Below are positions 34,205-41,910 of a DNA stretch of 64,000 nt, piece by piece. The stretch comes from Flavobacteriaceae bacterium (lineage in GTDB: Bacteria; Bacteroidota; Bacteroidia; Flavobacteriales; Flavobacteriaceae). Each line of letters begins with the position of its first letter. The stretch's first letter is position 1. The DNA is taken from the NCBI GenBank assembly GCA_021648265.1, contig JAKITD010000003.1:1-64000 (forward strand), written 5' to 3'. Position numbers and translations under genes: made by a program. A model generated the notes under the pieces. It searched no databases. It saw only the letters and a program-made list of their open reading frames with translations, and was not told where the DNA came from.

Positions 34205-34270
34205 TTAGAAACTCAAAGAGGTATTTCAGAAACAGATAGTTGTTGTTTAAACAAATAAGTTGCAGTTTTG
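34205..34270 (+). promoter_or_regulatory. Predicted LytTR operator 1 plus -7 region, upstream of the histidine kinase gene
   Basis: TTAGAAAC (34205) and TCAGAAAC (34226), 21 bp apart; TTTG at 34267, 41 bp from the second half-site. Confidence 0.65.
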
Positions 34271-34314
34271 TTATTACTGTTTTTCAGTTATACTTAAATT
34301 AACGAATTATAACT

Positions 34315-36180
34315 ATGCGTTTCAAATATATTTTACTCCTCTTTTTATTATTCCCTGTTTTTTTAATTTCTCAAGATGAAAAGCAAGATAGTATTCTTCA
34401 TACATTAAAGGTAAATACACAAAGAGATAGTTTGCGAGTGGAACTGCTGTTAGATGCAGTTTATTATTATCGCTCGCGAGAATTTGAAAAAGCAACTCCA
34501 TTAATTAAGGAAGCAATAGCAATTTCGGAAGAAAAAAACTACAAGATTTTAGAAGGAAGAGGCTATTTATACTTGTCCCGAAATGAAAGAAGAAAAGGCT
34601 TATTAGATGATGCTATAAAAAATGTTTTGGTCGCAATAAATATATTTGAAGCTATTGGAAATAACAATAATTTAATGCTAAGTAATAGTCATCTTGGAAT
34701 GCTGTTTCAAGAAACAGGTTTTCCAAAAAAAGCTATAAAGATGCACTTAGAGAATATTATTATTTCTAAAAACGATGTGGCAAGTGGTGCAAAAGCAAGG
34801 TATTATTTTGATGCAGGAAATGCTTATTTATATTTAAAAGAGTATCAAAATGCTGAAAAATACTTTTTAGAAGCTGTAAAAATTTCAAAGGAAAGTAATT
34901 TTATTCCTGGAGAAATGATTATGCTTTCAACATTAGGACAATTATATATTGAAACTAAAAAATATAATAAAGCTGAACAGAATATTAATAAAGCCTTAAG
35001 CTATTTTGAAGAAACGGGACAACTTGCAAATATCGCAGGCTCTTATTTTTATCTTGGTGATATTCAGTCACATAAGCACAATTATAAAGAGGCAATTTCT
35101 TTATACAATAAGGCTCTAGATATTTATAATCAGATAAATCATTTAATGCAGATTAGGGATACTAATAGTAAACTTTTTATCGCTTATAGTATTACTGAAA
35201 ATTACAAAAAGGCAGATAAAGCAAATAAAATATATACTCTTTTAAACGATTCTATAGATTCTTCGGAACGCAATAAAATGATTGCCGAAATGAAAACAAA
35301 ATACGAAACCGATAAGATAGCAGCACAAAAAGAAGCTGCAGAGATAAAAGCAAGTTTAGCAGAAAATGAAATTAAGCAAAAAAAAAATTACCTTATTGGG
35401 GCTATTATTATTGGAGCTCTTATTCTATTAGCTTCCTTATTTTTTATAGGAAGATTAAGAGCAACAAAAAAAGCCGAACTTATTACTATAGAACTTAGAG
35501 AAACCCAAAAACGATTGGCTTTAGAAAAACAATACCGAGAAAGTGAACTAAAGGCACTAAAATCACAAATGAATCCGCATTTTATATTCAATGCCCTTAA
35601 TTCAATACAGGAATATATAGTATTAAATAAGAAAGAATTAGCAAGTGATTATTTAGGAAAATTTGCCGATCTCATTAGAACCTATTTGCATCATAGCGAT
35701 ACAGGGAAAATAGCTATTCAAGAAGAAGTAGATAGTTTAAAAACATATCTCGACTTAGAAAGTCTTCGATTTGAGGACAAACTTCAATATACTTTTGAGG
35801 TTTCGGAAGGTTTAAATACTGAAACGCTCCATATTCCTACGATGCTCATTCAACCTTATGTTGAAAACGCGCTTAAACACGGATTGCTTCATAAAAAAAA
35901 TCACAGACGATTGTCTATTAAGTTTTCAAAATTAGATACTACTAATTTACAATGTATTATCGAGGACAATGGTGTTGGCAGAAAAAAAGCGAAAGAGTTT
36001 CAAGAAAAAAGATTAAAATCACACAAACCTTTTGCAGCAAAAGCTACCGAAAGCAGGTTGGATTTGCTCAATTTTGGTAAAAATAAAAAAATAGGCGTTC
36101 AGATTATCGATTTATTTAATGAAGATAATCTTGCGAGCGGAACTAAAGTGATTTTGAGTATTCCTATGATAAAAGTATAA
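34315..36180 (+). CDS. TPR-containing LytS-type sensor histidine kinase
   Basis: TPR repeats, one TM segment, LKSQMNPHFIFNALNSIQEYIVLNKKELASDYLGKFADLIRTYLHHS His_kinase motif, VENALKHGLLHK. Confidence 0.94.
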   Translation: MRFKYILLLFLLFPVFLISQDEKQDSILHTLKVNTQRDSLRVELLLDAVYYYRSREFEKATPLIKEAIAISEEKNYKILEGRGYLYLSRNERRKGLLDDAIKNVLVAINIFEAIGNNNNLMLSNSHLGMLFQETGFPKKAIKMHLENIIISKNDVASGAKARYYFDAGNAYLYLKEYQNAEKYFLEAVKISKESNFIPGEMIMLSTLGQLYIETKKYNKAEQNINKALSYFEETGQLANIAGSYFYLGDIQSHKHNYKEAISLYNKALDIYNQINHLMQIRDTNSKLFIAYSITENYKKADKANKIYTLLNDSIDSSERNKMIAEMKTKYETDKIAAQKEAAEIKASLAENEIKQKKNYLIGAIIIGALILLASLFFIGRLRATKKAELITIELRETQKRLALEKQYRESELKALKSQMNPHFIFNALNSIQEYIVLNKKELASDYLGKFADLIRTYLHHSDTGKIAIQEEVDSLKTYLDLESLRFEDKLQYTFEVSEGLNTETLHIPTMLIQPYVENALKHGLLHKKNHRRLSIKFSKLDTTNLQCIIEDNGVGRKKAKEFQEKRLKSHKPFAAKATESRLDLLNFGKNKKIGVQIIDLFNEDNLASGTKVILSIPMIKV

Positions 36181-36208
36181 ATAGTACTGCGAAAAAAATA
36201 AAAAACAC

Positions 36209-36284
36209 ATGAAACGAGCATGTTAAAAAGTTTATCACCCAAGGAGATGACTCCCGACGTTTCGAGAGCGAACTGCATGTGACC
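36209..36284 (+). promoter_or_regulatory. Conserved 5'-leader element copy C, upstream of the LytTR regulator
   Basis: ATGAAACGAGCATGTTAAAA...GAGCGAACTGCATGTGACC then 23 nt to the ATG; middle contains CTCCCGACGTTTCGAGAG. Confidence 0.7.
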
Positions 36285-36307
36285 GAATTATTAAATAGTA
36301 TAGACAA

Positions 36308-37057
36308 ATGAAAGCAATAATAATAGACGACGAACCAAAAGCAAGAAACCTGTTGCGCATATTGGTAGAAGAAAACTGTCCAAAAATCACGCAAATTTTT
36401 GAAGCTGAAGATTTGCTTTCTGGAGTAGCGATTATAAAAAAGGAAGCTCCAAATATTGTTTTTTTAGATATTGAAATGCCCGAGCATTCGGGTCTTGAAA
36501 TATTAGATTTTATTGAAAAAGATGTAATTAATTTCGAGATTATTTTTACCACAGCTTATAGCGAATATGCAATCCAAGCTTTTCAGCTCTCGGCAATCGA
36601 TTATTTATTAAAACCTATTCGGGCATCACAAGTAAAAGAAGCAGTAGAGAAAGCAATAAATTTTATTGGCAAAGCACAAATAAACGAGCGTTTGTCTGAA
36701 TTAAAAAACTGCTTAGAAAAAGACGATTTTAAAAAAATAGGCTTGCCGTATGCAGACGGAATTAAGTTTGTGAACTTTAACGATATAATTATGCTTGAAG
36801 CAGATGGAATGTACACCAATGTATCTTTAAAAAACGAAAAAATAATTTTGGTAAGCAAGCCTTTAAAGTTTTTTGTAGAAGTGCTTCAAAAAATAAAAAT
36901 CTTTTATCGACCACATCGTTCTTACCTAATAAATTTAAAATATATACAAGAGTATATTAAAAAAGATGGTGGCTATATTGTAATGGAAAATGGTAAAACA
37001 GTTTCTGTATCCAAAGACAAAAAAGAAGAGTTTTTAGCTATTGTTCAAAATATTTAA
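36308..37057 (+). CDS. LytTR-family response regulator
   Basis: REC domain (IIDDEPKARN, FLDIEMPEHSGLE, TTAYSEYAIQAF) plus LytTR DNA-binding domain (IIMLEADGMYTNV, FYRPHRSYLINLKYI). Confidence 0.96.
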   Translation: MKAIIIDDEPKARNLLRILVEENCPKITQIFEAEDLLSGVAIIKKEAPNIVFLDIEMPEHSGLEILDFIEKDVINFEIIFTTAYSEYAIQAFQLSAIDYLLKPIRASQVKEAVEKAINFIGKAQINERLSELKNCLEKDDFKKIGLPYADGIKFVNFNDIIMLEADGMYTNVSLKNEKIILVSKPLKFFVEVLQKIKIFYRPHRSYLINLKYIQEYIKKDGGYIVMENGKTVSVSKDKKEEFLAIVQNI

Positions 37058-37140
37058 GCTTACTAAACTGAAAATCCGTGACCCGAGCAAAGCGAACAAA
37101 TTAACTCTTAAAAATATGAATGCGTGAATAAAATCCTGCC

Positions 37141-37206
37141 TTAGCAACTCAAAACCCCTTTTTGGAAATTCACACACCAAAAAACAAGGTATAATAAAGA
37201 CTTTTG
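37141..37206 (+). promoter_or_regulatory. Predicted LytTR operator 2 plus -7 region, upstream of the LamG/T9SS gene
   Basis: TTAGCAACTC (37141) and TTGGAAATTC (37162), 21 bp apart; TTTG at 37203, 41 bp from the second half-site. Confidence 0.55.
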
Positions 37207-37230
37207 CTTCATAATCAATAAAAATTTATT

Positions 37231-40200
37231 ATGAAAACAAAATTATTTTTAGCACTACTATTTATAAGTAGTATCGCTTTTGCACAATTCCCTACAAACG
37301 GATTAATAGGAGAATACTCTTTTACAGCAGGAAGCCTAGCAGACGGAGCAAATGGCAACAATTTTACACAAACAGGTACAGCCTTAACAACTTTAGATGA
37401 TCGATTTGCATCTGCTAATGATGCAATTAATCTAGGAGGAGATTATTTAACAAGAACAAATATCGATTATCCTAATTCAGGAGAATATAGAGATATAGGT
37501 ACTGTTAGTTTTTGGATTAAAACAACAACCAACTCAAGTGATACTAAAGTCATTATTGATGATACAGATAGAAGTAATATAACGGATACACAGTGGGCAG
37601 GTTATCATGTTTACTTGAAAGACGGAAAAGTGGGAGTTGCAGTTATGGTAAGATATAACGTTCTTGGTTATCGTGGATTTGGTGTTTTATCCCCTCAAAT
37701 AATTAGCGATGGTAATTGGCATCACGTTGCTATTACAATGAATAATAGAGCTCATTTTTCAGGTTCAGTTACTATTGTTAGTGCAGGTGTTGCGCTATAT
37801 GTTGATGGGGTTGCTGCTGGAAACACTGGAGTTTCAAATGCCAGTACAGGATTTATTCAATTAACCCAAACAAATGATTCTCCAGGAAACGTTACTATTG
37901 GTAATAATAGAGGTAATAATTTTCCAACAATAAATAGATACGAAGACACAATTGATGATTTGTTATTTTATGGTAGATCTTTAAGTCCAACAGAAATAGC
38001 ATCTATTGCTAATTATAATTTCTGTTTTGCTATAGATACTTCAACAATAACTATTTCAAATGCAACAACAACTAGCTTTGATGTGTCTTGGCAAGAAAAT
38101 GGTGATTTTGAATTAGCATACGTATTAAGCGGTCAGCCTCTTGCAAGTGCAACGGTTATACCAGTTAATGGATATACTTCTGGTAATCTCGAAAATATTT
38201 CAGGTTTAACAGAAGGTACTTTTTATGATATTTATATTCGAGAAGTATGTACTGCAACCTTATATTCAGCTTGGTCAAACGCTTTACCAGCAAGAACACT
38301 AGGTAAAATATTTGTTAAAGCAGATGCTACAGGAGCAAATAATGGTAATTCTTGGGCAGATGCTTATACAGATTTACAAGATGCCTTAGCAATCTCTGAA
38401 TATAATCAAGAAATATGGGTAGCAGAAGGTATTTATAAACCTCATACTTCAGACAGAAGTATCTATTTTGAAATTACTAAAAATGGCACAAAAATTTATG
38501 GTGGTTTTGATGGTACAGAAACGCAACTATCTCAAAGAGATTTTAGAGTAAATGAAACCATATTATCTGGAGATTTATTAGGTAATGATAACACAAATGT
38601 TGTGCTTAACGAAGCAACAAGAAGTGATAATACCGCAAAAATTATACACGTAAATGCTCATAATTTTACATTAGATGGCGTTACCATTTCTGATGCAGAA
38701 GGATTTATTGCAGGTAATGCGTTTTATGAATCTGGAGCAGCTTTAACTAAGCAACTTTTAAAAAACAATCTAACTATAGAGAATTGTATAATTAAAAACA
38801 ATACTGCTTATAAAGCTGGTGCTGCAATTCTTGCAGTATATGGTACTTCAGGATTTTTAAAAGTTACAAACACCGTATTTTCAAATAATCTTGCAGGATA
38901 TGGAACTGCTTTTTATAGTTATACAGTTGGTGCCACTACTTTAGATGTAGATATAACAAATTGTTTATTTAACGATAATGTAGCAACAGATATTGGTTCT
39001 TCATTAGGTTTTGCAGGTAGTGCAGGTTGGTTTAGAGCCCATAGTGCTGGCTCTACGGTTACAGCTTCGTTTGTTAATAACACCTATACCAATAATAAAG
39101 ATGATGGAACAGGTGGCGGTTTAAATAATTTTACAAGAGCAACTTTGGGTATTAGTCGAACTAGTGGAAATATGATTGCTAATGTAGATAATTGTATATT
39201 TTATAATAATGAAGCTTCAGGAACAGCTACGGCTAGATCTATAACTGGCATCCTTGCAACTCTTCCAAATAACATTACTGTTACAAACTCTATAGACGAA
39301 AATAATTTTGCTGCAATACCTGCTGGAAACACTACAAATACAAGCAATGTAAATCCATTATTTACAAATAGTCTAAATGATTTTACCTTGCAAACAGGTT
39401 CTCCTGCTATAGATACAGGAGATAATAGTAAAGTACCAGCAAGTCTTTTAACAGATTTATTAGGAAACGCACGAATTTTTAATACAACTGTAGATATGGG
39501 AGTTTACGAATTTGGTTCTCCTGTTTATACAACATATTCTTTAACTACAAGTGTTTCTGGAAACGGTTCGGTTTCTCCAAGCGGAACAACAACATACACA
39601 GCAGGAACAGTTGTAGAAATTACAGCAACGCCAGATACCGGTTGGGTTTTTAGCCATTGGCTTGGTGATGCAAGTGGTAGTACAAATCCTGTAAATGTAA
39701 CAATAAATGCTAACAGTTTGGTTGAAGCAGTTTTTGTAGAAGAAAGAACTTTAACTACAAATACTGTAGGAAATGGTTCAGTCTCTCCAAACGGAACAAC
39801 AATATATAATGATGGCACATTAGCCACCATAACGGCAACACCAGATACAGGTTGGCAATTTGATAGTTGGACTGGCGATGCCGTAGGTAGTTTAAACCCA
39901 ATCTCAATAACAATGGATGCTGACAAGACAGTTACAGCAAATTTTAGTCAAATTCAATACGAATTAACTATTATTGAAAATAACGGAACAGTTACACCAG
40001 ATAGCGGAACATTAACTGGTGGCGTTTATGTTTATAATGCAGGAACTGTCGTAGAAATAACAGCAACGCCAGCAAGTGGTTACAGTTTTGTTTCTTTTGA
40101 TATAACAGATTCTAGCGGAACAACTACGGATGTAACAAACCCGTTATCTATTATAATGAATGACCATATGGTTATTGAAGCAACATTTTCATTAATACCA

Positions 40201-41106
40201 ACTCATGAGTTAACTACAAATACAATTGGTAGCGGTTCTGTTTCGCCAAGCGGAACAACAACTCATAATGAAAATGATATTGTTGCTGTAGTGGCAACTC
40301 CTGCAACAGGCTATCAATTTGATAGTTGGACTGGAGATAGCACAAGTACAAACCCTAGCATTAACATTACAATGAATTCAGATAAAGTGATTACGGCAAA
40401 TTTTAGTCAAATACAACACAGTCTAACAGTAAATGTAATAGGAAACGGAAGCGTAACACCAAACAGCGGAACATACAATTACGGAACTGTATTAAGTTTA
40501 GTTCCAACAGCAGATACAGGTTGGCAGTTTGACGGTTGGAGTGGCGATGCCTCTGGAACTGCAAATCCGCTTTCAGTAATAATGGATTCAGACAAAGTAA
40601 TTACAGCAACTTTTAGTCAGATAGAATACGAATTAACTATTATGGCAGTAAACGGAACAGCGATACCAGATATCGGAGTTTTAATTGGAGGTGTTTATAC
40701 TTATAATGCAGGAACAACAGTAGAAATTACAGCAACTCCTGCAAGCGGTTACAATTTTATTTCTTTTGAAATAACAGATTCTAACGGTACAACTACAGAT
40801 GCAACAAATCCGTTATCTATTACAATGAATGATCATATAACTGTTGAAGCAATATTTAATTTACTTGGTTTGGAAGATGCTTTGTTCTCAAGCCTAAGTA
40901 TTTACCCAAATCCAACACAAAACATTCTAAATATTAGAACAGATACAGCTTTTGAAAAAGTAGAAATTTACAACCTACTTGGAGTGAAGTTAATTGAAAA
41001 CAATTCAAAAACATTAGATGTATCAAAGCTTCCAAGTGGAGTATATCTAATAAAAATAACTAACGAAGAAGGAAGTTATATAACCAAAAGGTTTGTAAAA
41101 GAATAG
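37231..41106 (+). CDS. Large surface protein: LamG-like domain, Fn3-like and parallel beta-helix regions, InlB B-repeat-type modules, T9SS type A sorting domain
   Basis: LamG-like N-terminus (GTVSFWIKTTTN...WHHVAITMNN), repeated GNGSVSPSGTTTYTAGTVVEITATPDTGWVFSHWLGDASG modules, C-terminal IYPNPTQNILNIRTDTAFEKVEIYNLLGVKLIE. Confidence 0.92.
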   Translation: MKTKLFLALLFISSIAFAQFPTNGLIGEYSFTAGSLADGANGNNFTQTGTALTTLDDRFASANDAINLGGDYLTRTNIDYPNSGEYRDIGTVSFWIKTTTNSSDTKVIIDDTDRSNITDTQWAGYHVYLKDGKVGVAVMVRYNVLGYRGFGVLSPQIISDGNWHHVAITMNNRAHFSGSVTIVSAGVALYVDGVAAGNTGVSNASTGFIQLTQTNDSPGNVTIGNNRGNNFPTINRYEDTIDDLLFYGRSLSPTEIASIANYNFCFAIDTSTITISNATTTSFDVSWQENGDFELAYVLSGQPLASATVIPVNGYTSGNLENISGLTEGTFYDIYIREVCTATLYSAWSNALPARTLGKIFVKADATGANNGNSWADAYTDLQDALAISEYNQEIWVAEGIYKPHTSDRSIYFEITKNGTKIYGGFDGTETQLSQRDFRVNETILSGDLLGNDNTNVVLNEATRSDNTAKIIHVNAHNFTLDGVTISDAEGFIAGNAFYESGAALTKQLLKNNLTIENCIIKNNTAYKAGAAILAVYGTSGFLKVTNTVFSNNLAGYGTAFYSYTVGATTLDVDITNCLFNDNVATDIGSSLGFAGSAGWFRAHSAGSTVTASFVNNTYTNNKDDGTGGGLNNFTRATLGISRTSGNMIANVDNCIFYNNEASGTATARSITGILATLPNNITVTNSIDENNFAAIPAGNTTNTSNVNPLFTNSLNDFTLQTGSPAIDTGDNSKVPASLLTDLLGNARIFNTTVDMGVYEFGSPVYTTYSLTTSVSGNGSVSPSGTTTYTAGTVVEITATPDTGWVFSHWLGDASGSTNPVNVTINANSLVEAVFVEERTLTTNTVGNGSVSPNGTTIYNDGTLATITATPDTGWQFDSWTGDAVGSLNPISITMDADKTVTANFSQIQYELTIIENNGTVTPDSGTLTGGVYVYNAGTVVEITATPASGYSFVSFDITDSSGTTTDVTNPLSIIMNDHMVIEATFSLIPTHELTTNTIGSGSVSPSGTTTHNENDIVAVVATPATGYQFDSWTGDSTSTNPSINITMNSDKVITANFSQIQHSLTVNVIGNGSVTPNSGTYNYGTVLSLVPTADTGWQFDGWSGDASGTANPLSVIMDSDKVITATFSQIEYELTIMAVNGTAIPDIGVLIGGVYTYNAGTTVEITATPASGYNFISFEITDSNGTTTDATNPLSITMNDHITVEAIFNLLGLEDALFSSLSIYPNPTQNILNIRTDTAFEKVEIYNLLGVKLIENNSKTLDVSKLPSGVYLIKITNEEGSYITKRFVKE
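39529..40860 (+). repeat. Tandem degenerate repeats coding for B-repeat-like modules
   Basis: Recurring GNGSVxPxxGTxxYxxGTxVxxxATPxxGxxFxxW and ITxxxxxGTTTDxTNPLSIxMNDH units. Confidence 0.85.
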
Positions 41107-41166
41107 ATAGTTGTTTTGATTGATAAAAAAGGAAGTTGATTTTTTTAGCTTCCTTTTTTTGTACTC

Positions 41167-41231
41167 TCAGAAGTCGAAAAAGCGGTTTCAGAAACTCACC
41201 TACATTTTATCTTCTACTTAAAATATATTTG
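41167..41231 (+). promoter_or_regulatory. Predicted LytTR operator 3 plus TATATTTG promoter box
   Basis: TCAGAAGT (41167) and TCAGAAAC (41188), 21 bp apart; TTTG at 41228, 40 bp from the second half-site. Confidence 0.7.
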
Positions 41232-41255
41232 TCCTATAACTTAAAAACAAAAAAA

Positions 41256-41576
41256 ATGAAAATTATTTATGCAGCAATATGTGTGTTATTTCTTTCTGCT
41301 TTTACTTCCGTAGAGCAAGAAAATTTAGCAACAACCAATGATGAAATTACAGAAACCGTAGTTTCTAGTTTTACATTAATAAACGACACCAAAGAAAAAG
41401 TAAGCATTTACACCGGAAGCGGATTTGTTACTTTAAACAAAGGATCTAAAACTAAAATAAATTGCAAAGTCGGCAAAGAAGTACGTTGGGCAAAAAGCGG
41501 GATGAAGAAAGGTGTAATCTTTAAAATAAAGAGCGATATGTGTGGTAAAACCTTGAAACTATCAAAATTAATGTAA
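41256..41576 (+). CDS. Small secreted hypothetical protein
   Basis: Signal peptide MKIIYAAICVLFLSAFTSVE; basic C-terminus. Start at 41256 follows the predicted promoter; the longer ORF from 41136 is rejected. Confidence 0.75.
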   Translation: MKIIYAAICVLFLSAFTSVEQENLATTNDEITETVVSSFTLINDTKEKVSIYTGSGFVTLNKGSKTKINCKVGKEVRWAKSGMKKGVIFKIKSDMCGKTLKLSKLM

Positions 41577-41608
41577 ATAACTAACCAAATTATTTTTTAC
41601 ATTTTACC

Positions 41609-41640
41609 AACCCGAACAATCTTATTTGTTCGGGTTTTTC
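41609..41640 (+). terminator. Rho-independent terminator-like hairpin
   Basis: AACCCGAACAA-TCTTAT-TTGTTCGGGTT followed by T-tract. Confidence 0.85.
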
Positions 41641-41816
41641 TTTTTTTAATAACAAATCTATTTGCTAATGAGGCGAGAGAGTCGCAATCTCATAAGGTCA
41701 GTTCAGCCATGCCTTATTTCTGATAGCTAGTTGTTTAGAAAATACTTCCTCTAAAGCTTCAGGAGCGAATTCTTCGTGAAGGCAATATATTTTAAAACTA
41801 AGCTCAACATTTACTT

Positions 41817-41882
41817 TCAGAAGTTAAAAATCGCTTTTCAGAAACTCACTACTTAATAGTCACACTCTTAGAATCATATTTG
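41817..41882 (+). promoter_or_regulatory. Predicted LytTR operator 4 plus -7 region, upstream of the Gly-rich secreted protein gene
   Basis: TCAGAAGT (41817) and TCAGAAAC (41838), 21 bp apart; CATATTTG with TTTG at 41879, 41 bp from the second half-site. Confidence 0.7.
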
Positions 41883-41910
41883 CCTCATAATTAACCATTG
41901 ACAACAACAA

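Follow-up and report, generated by a model that had tools for sequence, protein, structure and literature searches.

A probable self-activating LytTR regulon with four copies of one operator in a Flavobacteriaceae genome

The window analysed here is a stretch of 64,000 nucleotides from a Flavobacteriaceae bacterium (assembly GCA_021648265.1, contig JAKITD010000003.1, positions 1 to 64,000), and is part of contig C4 of genome G000, a 2.83-Mb genome whose assembly is 92% complete. It carries an operon for a sensor kinase and a LytTR response regulator, and we are confident that the regulator activates this operon and three neighbouring units through one repeated DNA site. We observe the sites, their geometry, their conservation, their exclusiveness in this genome and their co-occurrence with the regulator. 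All features that can be tested place the locus among LytTR response-regulator regulons: the regulator has receiver and LytTR domains and the FhRhHRS motif, the sites are direct repeats with a 21-bp period at a fixed distance from a promoter, and one of them precedes the regulator's own operon. The initial annotation had proposed one LytTR activator with autoregulation and three neighbouring targets, and this proposal is supported by the non-random occurrence of the site, its co-occurrence with one regulator clade, discovery by the motif alone and recurring targets.

In the window, pairs of half-sites with a period of 21 bp begin at 34205/34226, 37141/37162, 41167/41188 and 41817/41838. A TTTG starts at 34267, 37203, 41228 and 41879, which is 41, 41, 40 and 41 bp past the second half-site, and all of these positions are as the initial annotation gave them. 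Two of its descriptions needed to be changed. The half-site T(C/T)AGAAAC is present, but a position weight matrix (PWM) shows that the conserved unit is longer, about TTYAGAARYTSA, within a full site of about TTYAGAARYTSAAA-N6-TTTYAGAAACTSA. The TTTG was said to resemble the 3' half of the -7 box TAnnTTTG, and we found that AnnTTTG is firmly conserved but that the full box is not fixed across sites. Only one of the four promoters in the window has a perfect TAnnTTTG (at 41224), and the other three boxes are CAGTTTTG, GACTTTTG and CATATTTG. A promoter scan with the E. coli hexamers found 42 matches where 48.5 were expected; this consensus is uninformative here, as expected for Bacteroidota.

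The motif is nearly confined to these four sites genome-wide, so it is not equally common at random positions. The pattern TYWGMARY-N13-TYRGAAAY has ten mismatch-free places in the 2.83-Mb genome, which are the four operators and six others; five of those six lie within open reading frames and none has a TTTG at the correct distance. For the main genome scan, an analysis that had been suggested at the outset, we trained a 73-position sequence model on 17 sites that came from other bacteria, with this genome and its sister left out. With this independent model the four sites rank first (E-values of 4.8e-9, 2.9e-8, 3.2e-8 and 5.7e-5), and the whole of G000 has no further site at E<=1e-3. When all sites are included in a 23-site model the gap becomes wider, with the four operators at 5e-12 to 5e-9 and the next match at 0.0085. 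In this genome the regulon seems to be confined to the one locus.

To look at conservation we took 79 loci from public genomes, each around a relative of the kinase. In their non-coding DNA there are 14 TYAGMARY pairs at exactly 21 bp and 0–2 at each other distance from 12 to 44, and the reversed half-site, used as a control, gives one pair at 21 bp. The site is conserved in the orthologous loci and 21 bp is the sole spacing peak. We then took 55 non-coding sites from 24 loci with the same regulator clade. The PWM spans only the repeats and the TTTG lies outside the matrix, yet a TTTG starts at +41 in 33 of the 55 sites and at +40 in another 7 (40/55 in total), against a background of 0.17 per position. 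Start codons are mostly 83–100 bp past the beginning of the site. Conservation covers the half-sites, their AAA/TTT flanks and the -7 box; it does not extend to the spacer or to the 30 bp that precede the box, and no conserved -33 element was seen in this set. Since a start-site map of Flavobacterium psychrophilum puts the G of TTTG at -5 (PMC9723704), the first half-site would begin at about -70 and the second at about -49, and the site would end near -38. The transcription start sites (TSSs) listed for the window in Table 1 are predictions derived from such position rules.

Known LytTR sites consist of two 9–11-nt repeats with spacers of 11–13 nt (PMC4847170), the repeats of autoregulated LytTR operons are some 10 bp 5' of the -35 box (PMC6193735), and AgrA sites are centred near -60 (PMC4227749). 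Because the geometry here matches characterised LytTR promoters, we think it most likely that the phosphorylated regulator, bound to both half-sites, activates transcription, with positive feedback. The TPR-sensor kinase would phosphorylate the LytTR response regulator, and two LytTR domains would occupy the pair of half-sites, which lie on one face of the DNA at a distance of two helical turns, from about -70 to -38. The bound regulator may then bring in RNA polymerase carrying the primary sigma factor, at promoters with AnnTTTG and no recognisable -33 box. Operator 1 would drive the kinase-regulator operon and so provide the positive feedback, and operators 2–4 would drive a 1291-aa adhesin-like protein of the type IX secretion system (T9SS), a 106-aa secreted protein and a two-gene Gly-rich secreted operon. 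The same regulator could instead bind as a repressor, with signal-dependent phosphorylation releasing the repression. The position of the site taken alone is compatible with this, and repressing LytTR regulators do exist, such as AgrA at bsaA (PMC4227749) and PlnD. We think repression improbable because the site lies 5' of the promoter (-70 to -38) and neither over nor downstream of the -7 box, the promoters have no conserved -33 element for unaided transcription, and characterised LytTR sites at such a position activate (PMC6193735).

G000 encodes nine LytTR proteins, and kinases are able to couple with other regulators, so another of the nine or an unrelated factor could be what binds the site, with the kinase-regulator pair merely one of its targets. 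We consider this a little less probable still than repression, since the presence of the motif tracks the clade of this regulator and not genomes generally. There is no convincing site near the other eight LytTR genes of G000, where one 20.9-bit hit near L119 is unconfirmed. Among the related loci, every regulator that scores above 320 bits against the window regulator has a site of at least 19 bits except those of L036 and L039, and among those below 280 bits only L042 has one. On the regulator tree the motif label needs 4 changes, where shuffled labels need 20, and no site is present in the nearest sister clade, which has 18 regulators. We also made an even draw of 300 family genomes with thresholds of at least 320 bits for the regulator and E<=1e-5 for the site. 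The regulator is present in 19 of the 300, and the site in 14 of these 19 carriers compared with 0 of the 281 others (Fisher p 3e-20; three of the 14 site-positive genomes had supplied training sites).

Searching with the motif only, in 246 genomes of the order, led to four previously unseen genomes, and all four have a regulator 70–71% identical to that of the window. The site begins about 10 bp past the stop codon of the regulator in G377 and G496 and is about 1.4 kb from the regulator gene in G385 and G509. TTTG is again at +40/+41 in these genomes, and the next gene, where readable, is 91–93 bp on and has a T9SS-like tail at its end. Overall, more than twenty other flavobacteria have the same site next to the same regulator. 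We rejected chance occurrence on the basis of the 21-bp peak in relatives, the genome-wide model scans and the co-occurrence with the regulator.

The DNA-contact motif of LytTR domains is FhRhHRS (PMC4227749), which in the window regulator is FYRPHRS at residues 199–205; H203, R204 and S205 are invariant in 25 members of the clade. Two residues are candidates for setting specificity, P202 in FYRPHRS and S233 close to the C-terminus: all or nearly all regulators of the clade with the operator have them, and most of the sister clade have other residues there.

In relatives the sites precede the kinase operon (in most loci of the clade) and genes 3' of the regulator. Por_Secre_tail is present in five of the five large downstream proteins tested. 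Homologs of the 106-aa protein are beside the regulator in G012, G117, G210 and G236, with a site of their own in G012, G117 and G210, and the Gly-rich gene pair (451 and 409 aa) is found again in G012, G198 and G101. Common ancestry or duplication of a promoter-bearing segment, leaving repeats with no regulatory meaning, might be suggested by the likeness of operators 3 and 4 and by the segment exchange between sister genomes in part of the locus, but it is a negligible prospect. Conservation is limited to the functional columns (the half-sites, the AAA/TTT flanks and the -7 box, not the spacer or the 30 bp before the box), on which ground we rejected it, and the pattern is seen again in many genera, 5' of genes that are not homologous.

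Some observations count against a self-activating regulon of this regulator. Operator 2 is weak. The sites at L036 and L190 are also weak, and L039 has only a divergent candidate. Two family genomes that carry the regulator, G176 and G098, have no site at E<=1e-3, and nine genomes with no regulator of at least 320 bits give weak matches (E 7e-5 to 4e-4). In L042, which is from Chitinophagaceae and so outside the family, the repeat is at L042:167, 86 bp before the kinase, and the regulator is more distant. With an assembly that is 92% complete, remote sites could be missed. Finally, binding, dependence on phosphorylation, the sign of regulation and the signal are all things that we infer.

Several known systems resemble this one in part. 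FimS of Porphyromonas gingivalis, another sensor kinase of Bacteroidota that contains TPR, controls surface adhesins, as the kinase here would, while FimR has a DNA-binding domain of another type. The NCBIfam FimS model gives the window kinase 26.7 bits, far under its 600-bit cut-off. AgrC/AgrA of Staphylococcus aureus works by peptide quorum sensing and has a large RNA-mediated regulon; at the present locus, unlike there, we saw no sign of a peptide signal. AgrC/AgrA does share FhRhHRS, direct repeats centred near -60, an autoregulated operon and extracellular outputs (PMC4227749). The BtsS/BtsR (YehU/YehT) and YpdA/YpdB pairs of E. coli have a LytS-type catalytic domain, a LytTR regulator, few targets and a tandem direct-repeat site (PMC5552118, PMC4847170), but the E. 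coli kinases sense pyruvate, are embedded in the membrane and switch on transporters; here the sensor is TPR (Reg_prop/Y_Y_Y in some relatives) and the genes predicted to be controlled encode secreted or surface proteins.

HdrRM/BrsRM of Streptococcus mutans and relatives (PMC6193735) also has direct repeats with a 21-bp period just 5' of the promoter, positive autoregulation and co-regulated neighbours, and its half-site ACCACTTA has ACT.A in common with the register GAAACTCA here. Those systems pair a membrane inhibitor with a receiver-less regulator, whereas this locus has a kinase, a receiver-domain regulator and a Bacteroidota -7 promoter. We rejected membership in the HdrRM type of LytTR regulatory system (LRS) because the genes of this operon are for a kinase and for a regulator that has a receiver domain. 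The LRS-like operons of Bacteroides (PMC6193735) have predicted LytTR direct repeats 5' of Bacteroidota promoters, but they encode membrane-bound LytTR proteins, the repeats are of 11 bp and 11 bp apart, and there is no kinase and no adhesin regulon described. In the open-access papers that we searched we did not find a described operator of a receiver-domain LytTR regulator in Bacteroidota, the nearest being these Bacteroides repeats; this is provisional because subscription-only literature was not covered.

Table 1. Features of the regulon in the window.
Feature	Position	Strand	Evidence
Operator 1, direct repeat TTAGAAAC-N13-TCAGAAAC, 5' of kinase-regulator operon	34205..34236	+	sequence; genome-wide model; G012 (sister genome) has the identical site
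-7 box CAGTTTTG of promoter 1; predicted TSS near 34275	34263..34270	+	sequence and position rule
Kinase gene, 621 aa: signal peptide, TPR repeats, transmembrane (TM) segment, LytS-type His_kinase PF06580	34315..36180	+	Pfam; signal peptide and TM segment by sequence reading
Intergenic copy of dispersed repeat	36181..36307	+	repeat search
LytTR response regulator gene, 249 aa: Response_reg, LytTR, DNA-contact motif FYRPHRS	36308..37057	+	domain search; clade alignment
Operator 2, TTAGCAAC-N13-TTGGAAAT, weakest of the four	37141..37172	+	sequence; genome-wide model
-7 box GACTTTTG of promoter 2; predicted TSS near 37211	37199..37206	+	sequence and position rule
T9SS surface protein gene, 1291 aa: laminin-G-like lectin domain, six InlB-type B-repeats, Por_Secre_tail	37231..41106	+	domain search
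Operator 3, TCAGAAGT-N13-TCAGAAAC	41167..41198	+	sequence; genome-wide model
-7 box TATATTTG of promoter 3; predicted TSS near 41236	41224..41231	+	sequence and position rule
Small secreted protein gene, 106 aa, predicted C-terminal beta domain	41256..41576	+	homologs beside same regulator clade in four other genomes; structure prediction
Intrinsic terminator, 3' of small gene	41609..41636	+	terminator prediction
Operator 4, TCAGAAGT-N13-TCAGAAAC	41817..41848	+	sequence; genome-wide model
-7 box CATATTTG of promoter 4; predicted TSS near 41887	41875..41882	+	sequence and position rule
Gly-rich secreted protein gene, 451 aa	41911..43266	+	ORF translation; relatives' loci
Second gene of Gly-rich operon, secreted protein, 409 aa	43303..44532	+	pair conserved in G012, G198 and G101 beside regulator

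The kinase had been described as LytS-type, and this is right for its catalytic domain alone (His_kinase, 3.5e-23 in Pfam). We did not find 5TMR_LYT, the multi-TM sensor of LytS and BtsS, in the protein; the only N-terminal Pfam matches are TPR repeats, so the sensor is a TPR domain. The regulator matches Response_reg at 4e-21 and LytTR at 4.7e-18, and its best NCBIfam match is BtsR with a score under the model cut-off; its receiver Asp is in FLDIEMPE. The spacer between the two genes is a copy of a dispersed intergenic repeat; G000 has 17 matches to it, G012 has 13 and G195 has none. With a predicted terminator between them, the small gene and the Gly-rich operon are separate units. Fold prediction for the 106-aa protein gives a confident C-terminal beta domain (predicted local distance difference test score, pLDDT, of about 92). 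We claim no function for it, as the thaumatin-like matches in a PDB search were partial and not significant (E 0.03, 42 residues). A single-sequence fold model of the Gly-rich protein is uninformative (pLDDT 37). The Gly-rich homolog of G101 (L182:9564-10903) is split over two frames, by a frameshift or an assembly error.

The locus differs unevenly from that of the sister genome G012 (L113). DNA identity is 89% for the kinase and 89–91% for the downstream operons and only 75% for the regulator, the gene for the 1291-aa protein is absent in G012, and the two regulators are on different branches of the tree. Because the regulator is divergent, the adhesin gene missing and the tree placement split while the flanks are close, comparison of the two sequences suggests that a cassette of regulator and adhesin was exchanged between the sister genomes. 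The right-hand limit of the exchanged segment (36165-41166 in the window) coincides with operator 3 at 41167. We also observed that the kinases paired with this one regulator clade and its DNA site differ in their sensors: some, of about 620 aa, have TPR, and others, of about 970 aa, have Reg_prop/Y_Y_Y (L035, L043, L181, L183, L187 and others). Both architectures appear to be present in L035 and L175.

Building on this cassette exchange, our tentative and rather speculative suggestion is that Flavobacteriaceae have a surface-protein switch that is modular and exchangeable and runs on a single LytTR operator code. Cassettes of regulator, operator and adhesin would be swapped between genomes by recombination close to the operators, and two unrelated types of sensor (TPR and Reg_prop/Y_Y_Y) would be connected to one kind of regulator and DNA site. 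If true, strains could change the signal or the surface protein and retain the wiring. Bacteroidota encode many pairs of a LytS-type kinase and a LytTR regulator. The predicted operator, the promoter geometry and the set of targets hold over about twenty genera, and this links the signalling pair to T9SS surface proteins and to two uncharacterised secreted families. A bench test is feasible in cultured relatives such as Bizionia echini, Meridianimaribacter flavus and Winogradskyella undariae, of which the first two share the architecture of this locus.

Two further observations concern genes outside the window. G117 has a strong site at L223 (G117:C4:87874), on a contig other than that of the regulator. 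The gene that follows this site encodes a protein of 421 aa with a T9SS-like tail at its C-terminus, and this protein is a candidate remote member of the regulon. A secreted family with the pattern F[YF]E.L..[NH]G..A.Y is found near regulators of the clade (L047:7919-8257, L043:11870-12853, L189:8657-9532 and L177:5919-6770). It had no Pfam match where tested, and some of its members are directly under a site.

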